Shown here: in pieces, positions 3,601 through 63,400 of the stretch | How the letters are laid out: every line of letters starts with the position of its first letter | Position numbering within the stretch: the first letter of the stretch is position 1 | Origin: Mycteria americana | Taxonomy: Eukaryota; Chordata; Aves; Ciconiiformes; Ciconiidae | Reading direction: 5' to 3' | Assembly: GCF_035582795.1 (NCBI RefSeq) | Contig: NC_134370.1 | Span: forward strand, 38,861,501-38,925,500 | DNA: 64,000 nucleotides | The notes under the pieces: model-generated | The model's input: only the letters and a program-made list of their open reading frames with translations | Database searches by the model: none | What the model was told of the DNA's origin: nothing | Made by a program: the position numbers and the translations under genes

Positions 3601-6600
3601 AACCTTTTCCTTTCCGTTTTTGAGTTCAAATGGAGCCTTTTCCTGTTTTCCCCTCCTCAAATTCTATATTATCTTGAGCCCCCGTTTCCTCTGTTGACAA
3701 TACACTTTGTAATTCTGCTTTCTGATTCAACAGGCACTCCTCTCTTCAGCCCTGAGATTTGCCAGTGACATCTTTCTGGGGACTTTCCCATTTACTAGGT
3801 GACCTCTAGGTCTGGGGAGGAGCAGTTTTTCTTTCCAGCCTCCAGAGAAGAAAGCTGCCAACAGCTGCTGCTTTTAAAACCCCAAACCAGATTGTTTTCC
3901 CTCCAGGAGACTCCAGCATGTATTCCCAAAGCCTGATTTTTATCTGGCGGTAGCCAAGCTCTGCCCATCCTGGAGAGATGCAGTGTGACCAAGCTCTGCC
4001 CATCCCGGCCAGGTACCACTCGGAGCCGGCGCCCAGGCAACGTGCCCCAAACCTCCGCGCAGGGTGGTCTCTCCCTGCCAGCAGTAGATGTGGCTACAGG
4101 CCCCCAAGTGCAATTAATCCCGAATTTGAGGGCTGGGAAAACCTTCACGCCAGGCTGGAAGGATTTCTTAAAAAAAAAAAATACTTAATTGAGTCTATTT
4201 TTTGTGTCTTTATGGGCACCCATCGTTTTGCTCAGCTGTGCAAGCCTCCTGGAGGGGAGGGCTTTAGGTCTAATAAAATCATAGCAATCTCTACCAATTA
4301 CATAAACTGGCTTTTCTACCCATAATATCATGAGTTTAGGAGCCAGGAGCTCAGGATCTACGGGAGCGAGAAGCGAGGGCTGTATTTCCAGCCATTGGTC
4401 ACCACATTTCTTCCTCCCAGAGATTTAAAGCCTCACAATGGGCTGATTTCTGGCAAGAAGTGGTAAAAGTGGGAGAAAAAAAAAATTAAAGAAGGAAAAA
4501 AGTATTTCTCCAGCTGGTTGGTTTGCTTTGTGTTTTTAAAATCAGCTGCAAGAAGCAAGCAGGAGCACCAGGAGAGATGGACTAGCATCCTGGGCACAGG
4601 TAAGGCGGGCGGGGGGACGGCTGGGGCTTTTACCCGATACCTATGCACATCCCGAGTGCAACACACATCCATGCACAGAGAAGGGCAAAGGTCTGCAGTG
4701 GGGCTTGGTGTTTAGGGAGACATCCAAAACCCCACCGTGCAGGGACCCAGAGCCTCTGCAGGGAGTGCAATCCCACCCACCCCCAGCTCCCCAAACTAGA
4801 GGGACCGAAGCAAAAGCACCAGCAGGCTGTGGGCGAGCGAGCATGACCTCATCTCTCAGACACGCAGAGCCGCCATGAGATTAAACCAGAAAATAGCGAC
4901 TGCTGCAGCGCCGGTGGCAGAAGGGGAGCCTCGCTATTCAGAGAGAAAAGCCCCCTGAGCATCTTCCCCTCCCTCTCTAAAGCACCCCCCAGCCAAAGCA
5001 GGGAAAAACATCCCTTTTCCAGGATTTCAGCTCTTTCCAGGGAGATTTTTAGAAGTGCTGCTAGAAGACCACCAAGAAGGGTCACAAAGATGCCGTGCTC
5101 ATCCAGGAGAAGAAGAGAAGCACAAGCCCTGCTCTCGGAGGCAGAGAGCTGACAGGCACGTCATCTGGTCTCTGGCTGCCCCGAGGCAGAATCATTCCTG
5201 GCAGATCTCTCCCTAATCCACCCTTCAAGACCTCCAAAGATGGAGGGAGCCTCCACAAGCCCCCAGGACATCTTTTTTTTTTGCCGTAGCTTGCTTTTCT
5301 TATCTTGGAAAGTTCTTCCTCCCGAATGTTTCTTGCAGCTGCTTACGCCCAGGAGATTTTGTGCCATTTACTTGGATTTTCTTGCCTTTCCTACAGCCCT
5401 TTCCCTACACGAAGATAGCTGCCGTGCCCCTCCGCAGCCTTCTCTGATCTCCTCTGACCTCTCCCTGTTCAGGCCAGCGCTTTCCCTAGCTGCGATGCCA
5501 AGCTCGCAGTGCACCCTGTGTAAAATCCAATTAGCCACCCTAATCCTCCACAAAGGTCCGGGGATACAACTCAAAGGCTTCTGGGCTTTTCCTCCAGAAG
5601 TGCAAAAGCAAAGCCTTGCCCATCTGCCTCGCACACCCCTTGGGTCCCTTGCACACCCCTGGCCGCCTTGCACACAAGCCCCCACAACAGCCACGCACAA
5701 ACTCAGAGCTGCAAGCTTCGCTCAGGGAAAATACTAACGCAAATATACACGTCTGATACATCCTGCCACCAAACTCCTCCTGCTAACATACCAAAGATGA
5801 TGGATGCTATGATGAAGCCAAGTGGCAACGGCAGCGACTGGCAATGTTGTTCCACGAGGCCCCAAACACGCTGCCGTCATCACAATTTTTTAAGGTGAGA
5901 CTTTGCTGCAGCTGGAAAACCAAGTTCTTCGTATGTATTTAGCACCTAGGAAGCAAGTAGCACATGATGCTGTGGATTTTTGGGAGGACTCAGGCTCCCC
6001 ATGCCCTTTTCCAAGACCCAGAAGGGAGAGCCGGGTCTCCAGAGCGGCTGGGCCAGCCAGGATGGGAAACCACAGTGAACTTCCGTGGTGCAAGGTCCTA
6101 TTCTCTTCCCATCACCGGCTACTCTGCACCCCATGTCTCCAAAGGCTACCGGCCTCTTTGCTTCCTCAGTGAGGCCAGTATCCGACAAGCACGTGGCATG
6201 AGGCCATTTCCCGGCAGTCAATGACCCCTGGAAGCAGCTGGCCAGCAAACGCAACATCAAGTTATTGCAGGAAGATGGACATAATGCATGAAGGATGACA
6301 GCAAGGACCCTCTGGAGAGTGACAAATTCCCATACAGATGAACACCCTGTGCCAAGACGGGGATGGAGCCCAAACCCTACCGGGGCATGCATCCTCCTGA
6401 TGGCACCCAGGCGGCATTTGCTGGGATCAGAGCCCGGCACCCAGCCCAGTCCAAGGGGAAGCGTCTCCCGCTATTCCCACCTAACCACATTGTGCTGTGC
6501 CGCCGAGCCTCGCTTCTCCCGCAAGCCGGGCTCAGGTGCATCCCTAAAGCCCATCTTCTTGCAGAGCACTTGATTACAGCTGCATCTCCAAATTCCTGCA

Positions 6601-12045: not shown

Positions 12046-13925
12046 CTGCCCCTGTTTACCTTGTCCCTAGCTGAATGCTTTCAGAATTGCCAATCTTTTC
12101 CTTGGAGCCGCCGTTTCAGCAGGCAGGGCTGAGCAGCAGAGCTGGGGCAAGCACAGTGCTGGCACCCCTGGTGACCCCACAAGCCTTTTGCCACTGGTGA
12201 GCAGCAAAACCATAGCTCGGAGGGGACGTGCTGAGCCCACGGAGGATGCTGAGGGTAAGAAAGTCCTGCAGGTCAGGATGGAGATGCACGGCCAAATATC
12301 TCAGCAGAACTCGATGGTTGCAACTGCGGCTGGTTGGAACGATGGGAAGAAGTGAAACCACTATCTGAATTTGCAGAATACCAACTTACTGCAGCAATCA
12401 GGATGGGAGAATTGATGGGGACCAGGTCACCCAGCACCCTTGAGGATGCTGTGCCCCATCTCCCAGCCATTCCCCCCACACTGGGATCCCTCCTGGGCTC
12501 CTCCCTGCCTTGCAATGAGATCTTCAGCTGAAACAACCCCCACCAAAACCCATTCAGAGCTGGGTTTCACTTATTATCTGGGAGAGGGAGCTAGGTCTCT
12601 GCCTTTCCCCCCCTGGGGAAAAGAAGAAATAAATACAGCAGGGTTGATTTTTCATGTTCAAACACATTCCCATCCCCGAGGCTTTTTTTTTATCCCAGGC
12701 AATTGCTTTTGCCCTGCATTGGAAATCACTTGTTAGGAAGGTGGGAAAGCGGAAAGAAGCCTTTGAGCCCCCCGGTCCAGGTGATGCAAAGCTCCAGCCT
12801 TCATTACCAAGATTAAAGGGGCTGAGATTTCCTAAGCAATTAAAAACCCTGCCTAATTAAGTCAGGACTATTAGGCAGGCCTTCCAAGGGTTGCATCAGG
12901 GGGCAGGAGAAGGGGACGGGTCTGCAGCCTGGCTGAAAGCAAAGAAGCCCACAAGTAATTTCTTTAGTAAGGCAGAATAAATGGAGATGTACTGTACTGG
13001 GAAGATGGAGAGCATGTGCTCCATTAAAAAGAAAAAGAAGAGGAAAAAAATAGCATCAACAGCCTCTTGCAAATAGCTAAGTCAACTGTCCTACTACATC
13101 AGCAGCAAATTATCCAAACACTGAAATACCAGTAAGAGACAAAATATTCAGGCAGGTATTTCTGCATTTAAAAAAAAAAAAAAAAAGTAAAACCAAAATG
13201 CATGGTTAAGTCAAAAAGAACAAGGGACCCATGGGAATCAGGGCTCTCACAGTCACAGCAGGAACCATCCCACTGTTTAAGAAAAAGCATCCCTTGCTAT
13301 TCAAAAATGATATTTTTTCTTTTCACCCTCTACTTTTGAATTTCTGCTGCCTGCGCCTCCCACCACTGGCAGCAGATGAAAGCAGCCACTGGGACAGATG
13401 GAGCGTGTGCTCCTGCTTTTGTGCTCCCCATCCTATTCTATCATCCCTCCATCCGGGCTCCCGCCCGTACCAGCGACTTCCCCGTCCCCCCCTCGGCCAC
13501 CAGGCTCCTCTCCCCCTGCTGCGAGGGAAGGGGGGGCATCGGAGCCCTCATTTGCATCTTGTTTTGATTAACTTGATTTTTTACTCTTCCACCTTTCTCC
13601 TTTCCTAAAAAAAAAAAAAACAACACCAAAAAACCACTAAAAAACACAAACCAACCCACCCCCACCCCCCATTATTTATGCTTTTAAGTCTACTCTTCGC
13701 TGAGCAGCTAAACCACCCCCAGCATCACCTTGGCACTGAAAAGGCAGGTCTGGGGGGGCAGCAGGGACCCCCAAATCTGGCACCATGTCTGCCTTTCCCC
13801 CTGCTGCATCCACAACTAAAAAAAGTTGGGAAAAAACCAACAAAGATGCCCAAACGTTAAAAATACCCAGGTCTGCAGTGACTGGCATGTCTGAGAGTCC
13901 TAATCCAGGCTACAAGTGTTTATGG

Positions 13926-14095
13926 CTCCAGATATACATATATATGCACACATGGAGCCATAAATATATATATCTGTATGTGTGTATATATATTTATGTG
14001 TGTATATATATGCATATATATACACATGTGTATGTATATTTGTGTATCTATGCATATATATACACATATGTGTGTATATAAATATACATATTTTT
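13926..14095. repeat. alternating purine-pyrimidine TA/TG microsatellite
   Basis: This tract of imperfect TATATA, TGTGTA and CACATA words is about 170 bp long. It lies shortly beyond the probable PALD1 polyadenylation site. Such alternating tracts can adopt Z-DNA or slip during replication. The open frames here on both strands are by-products of the low complexity. Confidence 0.8.
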
Positions 14096-45078: not shown

Positions 45079-45615
45079 GCCGGGCTGATCAAAGTCACCA
45101 GGAAAGGGGACGAGCTGATCAAAGTCACCAGGAAAGCGGACGCATCCCCATATTCCAAATGTACCAACCCAAAAAATTGGGAATCCTGTGCCTCAAGGGC
45201 TACACCATCCCCAGATCACCGAGGAAGGGGATGCATCCCCATATCCCAAAGTACCAACCCGGAAAGTTGGGAATCCTGTGCCCTGAGGGCCACGCCAGCC
45301 CCAGATCACCAGGAAAACGGATATATCCCCATTTCCCATACCAGGAAAGGGGATGTGTCCCTATATCCCAAACCAGGAAAGAGGATATATCCCCATTTCA
45401 CCTACCAGGAAAGGGGATGCATCCCCATTTCCCATACCAGGCAAGGGGATGCATCCCCATATCCCATGCCAGGAAAGGGGATGCATCCCCATATCCCAAA
45501 CCAGGAAAGGGGATGCATCCCCATTTCCCATACCAGGCAAGGGGATGCATCCCCATTTCCCATACCAGGAAAGGTCTCAAACACACCATCCTGGAAAGCT
45601 GGGAATCTCGCTCCC
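45079..45615. repeat. minisatellite with 32-bp units and internal palindrome
   Basis: The core is eight head-to-tail 32-bp units from 45309 to 45564 (unit starts 45309, 45341, 45373, 45405, 45437, 45469, 45501, 45533) plus a partial copy at 45565. Five consecutive units (45405 onward) carry the perfect 14-bp palindrome GGGGATGCATCCCC; the first three are degenerate at it. The flanks hold longer related copies of roughly 95-100 bp that share TTGGGAATCCTGTGCC and the same GGGGATGCATCCCC near 45227. A 30-bp duplication (GCTGATCAAAGTCACCAGG at 45084 and 45114) begins the array. It lies between the tRNA gene and LRRC20. Confidence 0.95.
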
Positions 45616-58500: not shown

Positions 58501-59613
58501 CCACCCCCAGCATGTTCGGGTGTCCCATGTGGTTTCCATCACGGGAAAGCTCCTGGGGATGTCAGGAGGGTGCCCCAGCTCTCCAGGAGGACCCCAAAGC
58601 TGTCCATGGGGCATCCCAGCAAGGTGTCCTTCCCCACCTTGGGCTGAAAACACCAAAGCTGGAGAAATCCCAACCTATATCTGCCACCAAAAGCCATACG
58701 TAAAGAGCAACCCACCTTACCCTTCCTTCCCACCTCTGGGTCCTGGCCGCCCGCCTTCCCCAGGGACATCCCACCAGGTCCCCAAAGCCACCACCGTCTG
58801 CCCTCCCGCAGGTTTCGCTGCATCGTCCACCCCTTCCGGCAGAAGCTGACACTGAGGAAAGCCCTGGTGACCATTGCCATCATCTGGGTGCTGGCCCTGC
58901 TCATCATGTGCCCTGCCGCCATCACGCTGACTGTCACCAGGGAGGAGCACCACTTCATGGTGGACACCTACAACAACTCCTACCCCCTCTACTCCTGTTG
59001 GGAGGCCTGGCCCGAGACGGGGATGAGGAAGATCTACACCACTGTCCTCTTCTCCCACATCTACGTGGCTCCACTTGCCCTCATCGTCGTCATGTATGCC
59101 CGCATCGCCTTCAAGCTCTTCAAGTCGACAGCACCTGCCCGTGGCCGAGAGGAGCCAGAGGGGAGGAGGGTCTCCCGGAGGAAGGCCAAGGTCATCAACA
59201 TGCTCATCATCGTTGCTCTCTTCTTCACCCTCTCCTGGCTGCCCCTCTGGACACTGATGCTGTTGACGGACTACGGGCGGCTGAGCGAGGGCCAGCTCCG
59301 CCTGGTCACCGTCTACGTCTTCCCCTTCGCCCACTGGTTGGCCTTCTTTAACAGCAGTGCCAACCCAATCATCTATGGCTACTTCAACGAGAACTTCCGA
59401 CGGGGCTTCCAAGAGGCCTTCAGGGCCCCCTTCTGCTCGCCCCACCGCCATTGCCACCGCAGGCCCTACGCCCCCAGGAGCCACGGCCGTGGGATCCTCT
59501 TCGGCGCCCGCAACCGTATCTTCGCCCAGGCACGGGCCAGTGACTCGCCGCCCGCCTCCGAGTCAGGACCGTTGGCCCTGCGCCGCGCCGGCGTCCCCGC
59601 GTGGGACAGCTGA
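55579..59613 (+). CDS. NPFFR1: NPFFR1 (neuropeptide FF receptor 1), complete, 4 exons
   Basis: This is a class A GPCR of the plasma membrane for RFamide peptides (RFRP/GnIH and NPFF), coupling mainly to Gi/o. Exons are 55579-55621, 57224-57520, 58363-58462 and 58812-59613, giving 413 residues (human 430). The extracellular N-terminus has N-glycosylation sequons at N18, N23 and N35. TM1 begins near residue 49, and TM2 carries [19 protein letters not shown]. The DRY box is ERF, as in human NPFFR1, with the ER/F junction split by the last intron. TM6 has FTLSWLPLW and TM7 ends [12 protein letters not shown]. Conserved extracellular cysteines are C in NAMCKMSG and in [10 protein letters not shown]. 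The C-tail is Arg/His-rich and diverges from human. A second in-frame ATG lies three codons downstream, so the exact start is slightly uncertain. Introns of 1.6, 0.84 and 0.35 kb show no other feature. Confidence 0.97.
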
Positions 59614-59929: not shown

Positions 59930-60235
59930 CTTGGCTACACCATGGAGAACCATGCGGTCCTTTGCTGGACCACACCACGCTGTGCTCAATCATGATACAC
60001 CGTGCTGTCGTGGCCATGCTGGACCATGCCAAACCATACTGCCGTGGCCATGCTGGACCCCACCACGCTGTGCTGGACCATGCCACACCGTACTGCTGTG
60101 GCCATGCTAGGCCACGCCATGCTGTGCTGGACCAAGCCATACCACACTGTTGTGGCCACGATAGGCCACACCATGCTGTGCTGGGCCATGCCACACCATG
60201 CTATCGTGGCCATGTTGGACCGCTCCACGTCGCGC
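59930..60235. repeat. minisatellite upstream of PPA1, 54-bp period
   Basis: Variants of GTGGCCATGCTGGACC and CACCATGCTGTGCTGG alternate. TGGCC words at 60045, 60099, 60153 and 60207 are exactly 54 bp apart, preceded by a shorter 34-bp step from 60011. Each 54-bp unit looks like two diverged halves of about 27 bp. The array fills the gap between NPFFR1 and the PPA1 CpG island. Confidence 0.9.
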
Positions 60236-60261
60236 ACGAACACCCCACGCCGCGTTGCCCT

Positions 60262-60344
60262 CCCCGCGCCACGCGGCCGCGCGCCCCCGCCCCGCCCCGC
60301 CGGGGGCGGGGCGGGGCGGGGGCGCGCGGCCGCGTGGCGCGGGG
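60262..60344. repeat. perfect 40-bp inverted repeat, 3-nt loop
   Basis: The left arm (60262-60301) and right arm (60305-60344) are exact reverse complements over 40 bp, separated only by GGG. The arms are G+C except for a single A/T pair. They contain CCCCGCGCC, the NotI-like GCGGCCGC core and stacked GC boxes (GGGGCGGGG). Pairing stops at 60261/60345. The structure lies 112 bp before the PPA1 start codon, in its CpG-island promoter. It could extrude as a cruciform or form a hairpin in RNA. It may instead be a fold-back assembly artefact. Confidence 0.95.
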
Positions 60345-60456
60345 CGGGGCAGGAGTAGTGAGTTTGGCGCCTGCGCGGTGCCCAACCCGTTGGTCGGAGG
60401 GGGCATGGCGAGTCGCGCCTGCGCAGTGCGGTAGCCGGCGAGCTGCGTGCGGCACG
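60345..60456 (+). promoter_or_regulatory. PPA1: PPA1 core promoter and 5' leader
   Basis: This is the CpG-rich sequence directly before the PPA1 start. Visible sites are a perfect E2F-type TTTGGCGC at 60363-60370 and two NRF1-like CGCCTGCGC words (about 60368 and 60416, the second continuing AGTGCGG). GC boxes lie to the left in the inverted repeat. NRF1 and E2F sites suit a housekeeping metabolic gene. Factor binding is inferred from motif only. Confidence 0.55.
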
Positions 60457-63400
60457 ATGGCCGGCTACAGCGTGGAAGAGCGCGCCGCGCCTCACAGCCT
60501 GGAGTACCGGCTCTTCTTCAGTGAGTGTCTACCGCCTTCCTTCTCCTCTTCCTTCCCCTCATCCTGCCAGCCCGGGGGTTGGGTGTCCGAGCTCCTCTGG
60601 AGGCGCTGGGGGAGCCCCCACGGCCTGAGGTGCGCACACCCCACACCCCCCCCCCCCGCCCCTCACCTGAGGCGTCCCCTCAGGCAGGGCCTGACTCGTC
60701 CCCCTTGCCTTGCAGAGGATGCCGCCGGGCGCTACATCTCTCCCTTCCACGATATCCCCATCTACGCGGACGCCGGCAAGGTGAGAGGGGACAGGGGCCG
60801 GCTGTCTTGCGGAGAGCAAGAACCGCCTAGCTAGGTGGCTGGTGTGGCCCCGTTGCTTGGAGCCGGTGACAAGAGCAACCGCTGGAGCTCTGGGCCCAGG
60901 GGTTGAGTATTTTGCCAGTGCTTCTCAGGGGGTGCGGTCCTGCAGGCCTGAAATACCCGAGGGAGGCTTTCGGTTCCTTTCGTTGCTTTTCAGCAGGAGC
61001 ACCCTAGAGGAAGCATCGCCAGATTTTGCAAAGAATGGGTGCCTTTCCCTCGCAGTCTTGTCCTCAGGTAGAGTGATGCAGGAGAAGGGAACGGATTATG
61101 TCACTCTCATATTCGTGTCGGAGATACCAGTGGTTGTCTTGAACTTGCTCATGAGGTCACATGAAAGCGTTTTGGGTTAAAAGAAGCAGTTTTATGTTTA
61201 GCTAAATACCTACATCCATTCCTATGGAGGCATATGCTCAGGCTGCATGATATTTCAGGCTTCCGTTTTGACTGCAGTGAGGCCCCTTTATGCCTGCAGT
61301 ATAATCAGCTGCTGAACAGGAGGTGAGGATGTTAGATTTTTGTTGTAGCAGCTCCTGGGGACCTCTTGCCTCACCAAAAGCGCAGCTGGGGAACCTGCTG
61401 CATGCAGTGATGCAGGGCTTTTGCATCCTTCCAGCAGCCAGCAGTTAGTCAAATTAGGCTGTTCTGAATCACTGTCTAAAATGCCCCAGCTCTAGGAAAC
61501 CAAAACAGCTGTGCTTCAGTTTTTACTGAATGCTTTTTCAGTGCTAACTCGGGCTGTCTCACTGTGTTCCTTACCTTTGTAGCTCATTTCTTCTTTTAAC
61601 ACGTACTAAAAAACTGTGCAGCTTGAGAAATGTAGTGGATGAACTGTTCTAATATTCATGACAGAGGTGTAATTTGGAGGTGGAGAGTGGTTATGGGAAA
61701 GGAAAAGAGTAAGCAGAATTGAAAGATCAACCTCTAAAAAGTAGCTGATTTAGCTTTGGGGTGCAGGTGTTGTCGGAATATGCTCTGGGAAGTCTGAGGT
61801 GGCTTTTGCCTGCTCAAAAGGGAAAAGAGGGATTGTAATCATCAAGGACAGTGGTGAAGCAGTTTCTGTGGCTGACTGGGAAAGCACTTTTCAAAAGCAG
61901 GTGTCTGAAAGGTAACTCAGACACGAAAAATCTAGATAATGCTACGCTTTGCAGATGCTTGCAGAATGGGAGGGAAGAGCAGGGGAGTGAGTATAGGGGT
62001 GAGGAGGGTTTCCGCGGACTGGTAATGATTAACAGGGGAAACTGGACTTCTGGTGTGCCTTCAGGCGCTTAGTGCTGCTTGCCAGCATCCCTGTGCCAAG
62101 TCATTAAAGAGAAGCAAGTATCACTGAAGGTCGCAGTCCCTGAAGTTACACAATAGTGCTGATCACATTAGACCTCTTTCTGTTCCTGGAGTGCCTCTCT
62201 ACAGAGATTTTACTCGTTACTTAACAGGTTCATTACCAGCTATGGTAGGGAGCCCAGCTTGCAGAAAAAAGGTTGCCGAACTCTGTCTGGACTCATTGAT
62301 CTTTATCCTTAGACTTCTAAGACACTGAGAGGATTGCAGGGTGTTTTTTTCAGTCTAGGGCTGGGATGTGCTGACCTTATCTGTACCTGTGTGTCTTGGC
62401 ATTGTGAAGGAATGACCTTGGGCTGCTCACTGGGTGTCTTAGACCAAGGCAGATCTGCCAGTTGGACTGTGGGGAAACTGCAAGCCTAACAAAGATGCAC
62501 CCCCAAGTTGTCTTTCCTTGCCTGCAAAGCCGTAAGCACCCTGCCTAGCCAGTTCTGATTACCTCATTCCTTTCCTCGAGTTACTTATAAATGAAAATAG
62601 TATAGACCGTTTTACTTTCAAATTGCAAATAAGCAGTGACCCCCTGCAATTAAGGGTATGTATTAAACTTCTGTTAGGGAAGGGTGTGGGCAAAGTCAAT
62701 GATGTAATAGCACTTGTTGCACAATAGCAATCGAATTATGGTGCAGTACAGGTGCGAGGGATTTTGCAATGCTAATACTGCTTAACCTGGGCATTAGAAA
62801 CCTTGTCGATGCTAGGGAGCAAGGTTTGACTTTTTGTTAAAAGCCATAATCTCTTCAAACAGCAAATGTTAAGGTTCAAGCATGGAAAAGCTTGTTTTCT
62901 TGAAGAGTCCTCTCTGACATTGAACTCTCAAGAGTCCTCTCTGACATTGAACTCTCAAGAGTCCACTCAGCCCAGCTGGAGTCAACAGGAGATGTTTTCA
63001 AGTGTCACCTGTAAACTAGATACTGCAAAATGTGGTTCTACATTTCTCCCCCACATGTTTATCCTTGCACTGTGCTGCTAACAATGTCTGTTGGCTTGGA
63101 GGGGGGAAGTTCAGGCATCTCTCCCTACTTCAAGATGGACTAGAATATTTGGGAGTGACGTTCTCGGTCATTCAGGATAGTACATAGGTACCCACATTAC
63201 TAAGTAGATGGCTTATTCCTGCAAGCCTTATCTCTCCTAAATTGCCAGGGTAGCTCTTGCTGTAGCATTAAGTGCTTTGCATTTAAAAAATAATGCCTAA
63301 AACCTCATTTTGTTATGCCCAAGATAGTTTGTCTTCGATTCATTTAAACCTGCTATTCTGTAACCTGGGAACATGATGGAGGTGTTCATAGGTGGCAACT

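Follow-up and report, generated by a model that had tools for sequence, protein, structure and literature searches.

The window, the whole 64-kb stretch of Mycteria americana DNA that was analysed (C6:38861501-38925500), contains two genes that flank the feature considered here. The left-hand gene ends near position 59613 and its product is a rhodopsin-family receptor (Pfam 7tm_1, E 3.7e-30), presumably NPFFR1. The downstream gene is PPA1, as named in the preliminary description: the peptide encoded by exons 1 and 2 matches the inorganic pyrophosphatase entries 8j7q, 6c45 and 7btn (E 1.9e-15), which we take to be human. The same 43-residue peptide matched no family in Pfam. The coding part of PPA1 exon 1 lies on the + strand at 60457-60520, begins with MAGYSVEERAAPHSLEYRLFF at the ATG and is followed by the splice donor GTGAGT; it was assigned from the peptide match, and its end was placed by eye. 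Between the receptor gene and PPA1 sits a degenerate minisatellite with a period of 54 (108), at 60017-60229, with weaker similarity from 59935 onwards. It stops about 30 bp before the left arm of the inverted repeat described below. The segment 60215-60261 resembles the minisatellite unit (1 of 300 shuffles as good), while 60230-60261 taken alone bears no such likeness (74 of 300 shuffles as good). On the other side, a 27-bp tandem repeat (2.4 copies, 97% matches) is found at 62903-62968, probably within a PPA1 intron.

A long inverted repeat upstream of PPA1

The palindrome is made of a C-rich left arm (60262-60301, possibly the copied one), a GGG loop (60302-60304) and a G-rich right arm (60305-60344, possibly the parental one), all given for the + strand. 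Base-by-base comparison reproduces the perfect 40-bp arms and GGG spacer reported earlier, the two arms being exact reverse complements at 40 of 40 positions. The sequence is also nearly all G+C, as had been stated (39 of the 40 bases of each arm). Pairing was said to end abruptly on the outside. There is indeed a mismatch right at the edge (T 60261 / C 60345), but three more pairs follow beyond it, so that the fold-back comprises 43 of 44 pairs over 60258-60348 if this one mismatch is allowed. The three outer pairs could be due to chance. The single-stranded 83-mer, folded as DNA, reaches -74.1 kcal/mol (z -12.3 against dinucleotide shuffles). With the PPA1 ATG at 60457, the palindrome spans -195 to -113 and ends 112 bp before the start codon, in agreement with the distance of about 110 bp first given.

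An origin from a vector, phage or plasmid was considered and dropped. Positions 60230-60460 of the window gave no match by blastn against plasmids, an exact 26-mer from the left arm had none in viral_contigs, and a blastn search of positions 1300-1800 of L025, a related locus described below, against phages was equally blank.

It could be argued that an island so rich in G+C, and so asymmetric between its strands, made the palindrome by chance, since composition raises the per-pair match probability to 0.57. However, simulated arms never exceeded 14 bp under Markov models of orders 1 and 2 with loops up to 10. Three backgrounds were used (the local island, the palindrome with its flanks, and the whole window in 5-kb draws, with 300, 300 and 60 simulations per order), and the training sequence contained the palindrome itself. 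The worst case, calculated from the arms' own composition, is about 1e-4 expected per window. Set against this simulated maximum of 14, the 40-bp arms rule out a chance origin, whose probability we regard as close to nil. In the 64-kb window, the longest perfect hairpin of different sequence has 14-bp arms (loops up to 30), and a TA-rich repeat at 13999-14066 pairs at 26 of 29 positions around a 10-nt loop when mismatches are allowed. The PPA1 palindrome displays what is expected of a template-switch hairpin, namely a reverse-complement copy that adjoins its source and is beyond chance.

Smaller symmetries occur elsewhere in the window. A 14-bp palindrome, GGGGATGCATCCCC, is present at 45413-45554 in copies 32 bp apart, and the TA-rich repeat, taken over 13919-14066, contains several short perfect hairpins.

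Promoter elements and the mammalian PPA1 genes

The 250 bp around the palindrome have a G+C content of 0.80 and a CpG observed/expected ratio of 1.12. Motif scans place GC boxes GGGGCGGGGC, presumably the Sp1-type consensus, on the + strand at 60303-60312, 60308-60317 and 60341-60350. In the left arm, on the - strand, GGGCGG is found at 60287-60292 and 60292-60297, and the longer consensus at 60289-60298. Judged by sequence, the region upstream of the PPA1 ATG thus has the GC boxes of an Sp1-driven promoter. The preliminary description invoked symmetric recruitment of SP1-type factors. Both strands do carry boxes, but the GGGCGG cores within 60200-60520 number four on the + strand and two on the - strand, and are not mirror-symmetric. 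A four-tract G-quadruplex motif that includes the loop Gs (60302-60322, regex scan) occurs on the + strand only within 60200-60520. Between the palindrome and the ATG, the motif scan detects two GCGCCTGCGC sites on the + strand, at 60367-60376 and 60415-60424, which we take to be NRF1-like; a stricter NRF1 pattern had no match in their region.

Human PPA1 has a 266-bp minimal promoter and Sp1 sites at -127/-104 (site 1), -167/-145 (site 2) and -232/-208 (site 3), and footprints at -185/-163 and -244/-215 are reported for the rat gene (PMC4414593). The numbering is counted from the ATG in one figure legend of that paper and is assumed here to be so counted elsewhere in it. Mutation of human site 2 or site 3 abolished about 74% or 63% of reporter activity, respectively, whereas activity did not change significantly when site 1 (-127/-104) was mutated (PMC4414593). 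A feature common to these two Sp1-driven promoters and the bird promoter is the presence of GC boxes 104-244 bp upstream of the ATG. Human site 2 and one rat footprint fall inside the stretch occupied by the bird palindrome, which also overlaps human site 1, while human site 3 lies outside and the second rat footprint is not reached. By this analogy the palindrome would overlap, in part, the positions of the mammalian Sp1 sites, and the SP1-type role proposed earlier finds a counterpart in some of these sites, but not in the others. The bird promoter differs from the mammalian ones in having an inverted duplication of the GC-box block; none was found in the available text on the human and rat promoters, and the string 'palindrom' is absent from the main text of that paper (PMC4414593).

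The human PPA1 gene has transcription start sites 67 and 57 bp upstream of its ATG (PMC4414593). By analogy, the start in the bird would lie about 50 bp downstream of the palindrome. The palindrome would thus be upstream of the transcribed region, which makes the RNA hairpin envisaged in the preliminary description unlikely.

Other fold-backs in the assembly

The whole assembly (1.348 Gb, 279 contigs) was scanned with GC-box seeds. The first, a 12-bp GC-box hairpin (CCCCGCCCCGCC-N0-10-GGCGGGGCGGGG), gave five forward matches that represent four places, and all four extend to 40-46 perfect pairs. One is the PPA1 palindrome. The others are L024 and L025, each with perfect 42-bp arms and a 4-nt loop (L025 at C1:124.23 Mb), and L028, which is perfect over 46 bp with no spacer and pairs at 52 of 54 positions with mismatches. 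No gene was recognised by eye among the ORFs listed next to L024, L025 and L028. At about 1400-1620 of L025, the two sides carry, by eye, a similar direct module consisting of CCCCGCCCCC, 7-8 bases and ATATT(C/G)ATGAG, an arrangement that resembles the duplication of a promoter module on either side of the fold-back.

The second seed, GGGGCGGGGC-N0-30-GCCCCGCCCC, has 124 matches. The 50 that were listed correspond to 40 places after overlaps are merged, and all 40 were read. Among the matches listed, five places extend, over 32-49 pairs: L045 (49/49 pairs, loop 0), L055 (32/34, loop 3, with in addition a perfect 26-bp register around a 17-nt loop), L056 (33/34, loop 3), L059 (39/40 with one gap, loop 3) and L062 (33/35 with one gap, loop 3). 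The remaining 35 of these listed places score 19 or less, the best being L047 with 27/31 pairs at a 24-nt gap. An outward extension score of at least 10 is reached at 5 of the 40 listed places, as compared to 9 of 1560 flank pairs mixed between places. An earlier mixed-flank null (5 of 1560 with at least 20 pairs, maximum 32) was not used because its anchors were other copies of the seed. At a score of at least 25, extension is seen at 5 of the 10 listed places with loops of 0-4 nt and at 0 of the 30 with wider gaps (one-sided Fisher 3.8e-4). This threshold was chosen after seeing the data, because the wide-gap place L043 (31/37 pairs, 3 gaps, score 13) passed a count of 30 pairs. The tight apexes that do not extend, among the second-seed matches listed, have arms of 15 (L041) or of only 10 (four others); the length gap between extended and short arms at tight apexes is not absolute.

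The third seed, GCCCCGCCCC-N0-30-GGGGCGGGGC, has 67 matches, of which 50 were listed, in 49 places. Among those listed, the places that overlap known loci are L025, L028, the PPA1 palindrome, L042 and L049, and the tight apexes, picked by eye, are L025, L028, PPA1, C2:72270133 and C6:808198. Read backwards, the three patterns matched 1, 33 and 52 times in the forward direction, versus 5, 124 and 67 for the seeds; being GC-box hairpin patterns too, they provide no clean null. The link of fold-backs with GC boxes and CpG islands is itself partly built into the search, since every seed used consists of GC boxes.

Altogether, the places read yielded nine fold-backs, with arms of 34-54 bp (mean 41.6, SD 6.9), loops of 0-4 nt and a G+C content of 78-97%. 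The flanks are CpG-island-like in all nine cases (G+C 0.66-0.83, CpG observed/expected 0.81-1.11). If arm length fell off exponentially beyond 20, the probability that all nine arms reach at least 34 would be about 0.003, a rough figure from a small sample. One or two mismatches or 1-nt indels are present in six of the nine, PPA1 included (five among the eight others). They lie within the arms in L055, L056, L059 and L062, and merely join short outer stretches, which may be fortuitous, in PPA1 and L028. The GC-box seed aside, arm sequences differ between loci, and the flanks are unpaired; the fold-backs therefore do not look like a transposon family. The existence of at least eight other perfect or near-perfect fold-backs in the same assembly is at odds with the earlier statement that such palindromes are rarely stable in genomes.

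An inverted-repeat transposon (MITE or foldback element) or other repeat family was also considered and found no support, no arm sequence apart from the GC-box seed being common to several copies. A DNA search of the bird's own genome with positions 60162-60444 of the window, which scores the best candidates only and skips simple repeats, returned only the query itself, the self-match of the palindrome on the other strand and one minisatellite stretch. Outside these loci, no tight fold-back scoring above 14 was found in the rest of the window or in 24 further stretches of the assembly, which total 240 kb and include several of 52-72% GC on short contigs.

Possible origin and consequences

We propose, with a probability of about 0.58, that an intra-strand template switch left the PPA1 palindrome as its scar, through fold-back (snap-back) DNA synthesis primed by a hairpin. 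In this mechanism, a 3' end inside the PPA1 GC-box cluster would form a small hairpin with a tight turn, for which CCGCC-GGG-GGCGG would be sufficient, and copy some 40-44 nt of its own strand. The copied end would then re-anneal ahead and synthesis would resume, so that a second, inverted version of the GC-box block came to lie next to the edge of the minisatellite. Sp1-type sites facing the other way would thereby be added in a section of the promoter that contains Sp1 sites in mammals. Long exact arms, sequences unrelated between loci and loops at the lower size limit for self-folding together fit self-copying of a strand. That extension is tied to a tight apex points to self-priming, since hairpin primers need such an apex; wide gaps would be tolerated if a nearby strand served as the template. 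Indeed, as expected for the intra-strand subtype, loops are small and widely spaced seeds remain unextended (5/10 tight versus 0/30 wide, among the matches listed), and the assembly contains similar scars at eight or more further GC-rich loci. The evidence comes from one bird assembly, and the comparison is made within that genome.

The sequence weakly favours the right arm as the source, because the GC box at 60341-60350 crosses the right outer edge intact and T60261 interrupts its mirror image on the left. The occurrence of perfect fold-backs beside slightly differing ones suggests events of different ages. At a neutral rate of 2e-9 per site and year, the one mismatch in 44 pairs at PPA1 would correspond to a few million years, which is meant as an illustration and not as a date.

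Template switching is described as making perfect hairpins in one step (PMC8794818). The bird loci would share with these hairpins (Monttinen and Loytynoja 2022, PMC8794818; Walker et al. 2021, PMC7954356) a single event that lays a reverse-complement copy beside its source, and a stable descendant hairpin that is perfect at first and acquires mismatches later. The reverse-copied fragments of great apes have, however, a median of 12 nt and a maximum of 128, and the switches favour AT-rich, poly(dA:dT) surroundings (PMC7954356), whereas the bird loci have 34-54 bp arms and loops of 0-4 nt and are GC-rich and CpG-island-like. Both the length of the arms and the AT-rich preference in apes speak against fold-back copying as the origin. 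Snap-back priming at short inverted repeats, as described in PMC7999016, likewise involves a tiny inverted repeat, a spacer of a few nucleotides and self-copying. Those systems give large palindromic duplications, while synthesis in the bird would halt after about 40 nt and resume its original course. The human palindrome catalogue also contains near-perfect palindromes able to form hairpins or cruciforms, but the longest are reported to be AT-rich and only 2% to exceed 80% CG (PMC7680136), as against 78-97% G+C in the nine bird fold-backs. Perfect inverted repeats of eukaryotes are mostly GC-depleted, according to PMC13155455. A literature search for template switching in birds, for palindromes in their promoters and for library artefacts of the fold-back type found no paper.

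The competing origin raised in the preliminary description is an artefact of assembly or library preparation, in which a polymerase or the consensus procedure turned back on itself in GC-rich DNA and the product was incorporated by the assembler. The rather narrow arm length common to the nine loci (34-54, mean 41.6) could be read in this way. These loci are also high in G+C and hard to sequence, and L059, imperfect by one base in a homopolymer run, could owe this to a consensus error. However, a simple fold-back read repeats one flank, and the outside sequences differ on the two sides at each locus read. Arm lengths vary, internal mismatches are present in L055, L056 and L062, and no tight fold-back turned up in the 240 kb of the 24 other stretches, which include 52-72% GC sequence on short contigs. 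Weakened on these counts, an artefact is less likely than fold-back copying and we hold it to be unlikely, the shared length of about 40 bp, in DNA that is hard to sequence, being what keeps it under consideration. Genuine DNA synthesis might also have taken another route, through an inter-strand template switch at a fork (four-point model) or the repair of a hairpin-capped break. The end product would be the same; such routes are described in PMC7954356, PMC8794818 and PMC7999016, and a nick or gap of constant size could account for arms of about 40 nt. We nevertheless find this route improbable: among the 40 listed places, which allow gaps up to 30, the extended folds have loops of 0-3 nt, and L055 has its best fold around a 3-nt loop even though a 17-nt-loop register is available to it. 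Moreover, the leading-to-lagging switch of ODIRA uses repeats 40-80 nt apart (PMC10766186).

It is conceivable that the symmetry itself was selected, paired Sp1 sites or a cruciform/G-quadruplex switch controlling PPA1. GC boxes on both strands, the G-quadruplex motif and the very stable fold (-74.1 kcal/mol, z -12.3) are compatible with such a role, as is the fact that Sp1 drives the mammalian orthologue (PMC4414593). But perfect pairing runs through stretches free of GC boxes at PPA1, L024 and L025, 40 exact pairs are more than a 10-bp binding site requires, and both the G-quadruplex motif and the GC boxes are asymmetric. A selected symmetry is therefore very improbable in our judgement, and the cruciform function suggested at the outset finds no support; the seed searches point to a copying event instead.

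If the palindrome arose by fold-back synthesis, the GC-box block has likely been doubled, with sites in both orientations, and extra Sp1 occupancy would be the likeliest effect of the new arm. On the strength of the sequences compared here, fold-back copying errors may have reshaped GC-rich gene-control regions. A broader and quite tentative idea is that a separate fold-back process, with a scale of about 35-50 nt and a need for a tight hairpin, reshapes the CpG-island promoters of birds, GC-box clusters priming their own inverted duplication of Sp1 sites. Should the fold-backs be real, each GC-box cluster would act as a hotspot for its own mutation, and a single event would both double and invert the activator sites of a promoter. 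This would offer a testable claim on the gain of sites in vertebrate CpG-island promoters, and another on a polymerase or repair activity that extends over about 40 nt. Should they be artefacts, the nine loci would form a compact test set for GC-rich fold-back errors in chromosome-scale bird assemblies.

Two other inverted arrangements were observed in the assembly. L022 contains at 4745-4789 (C25:1.005 Mb) a homopolymer fold-back, in which at least 17 G are followed by about 10 bases and then by at least 17 C. An identical 43-bp GC-rich sequence occurs at C4:61897088-61897130 and C4:62719982-62720024, in opposite orientations and 0.82 Mb apart; the two copies are perhaps parts of an inverted duplication.
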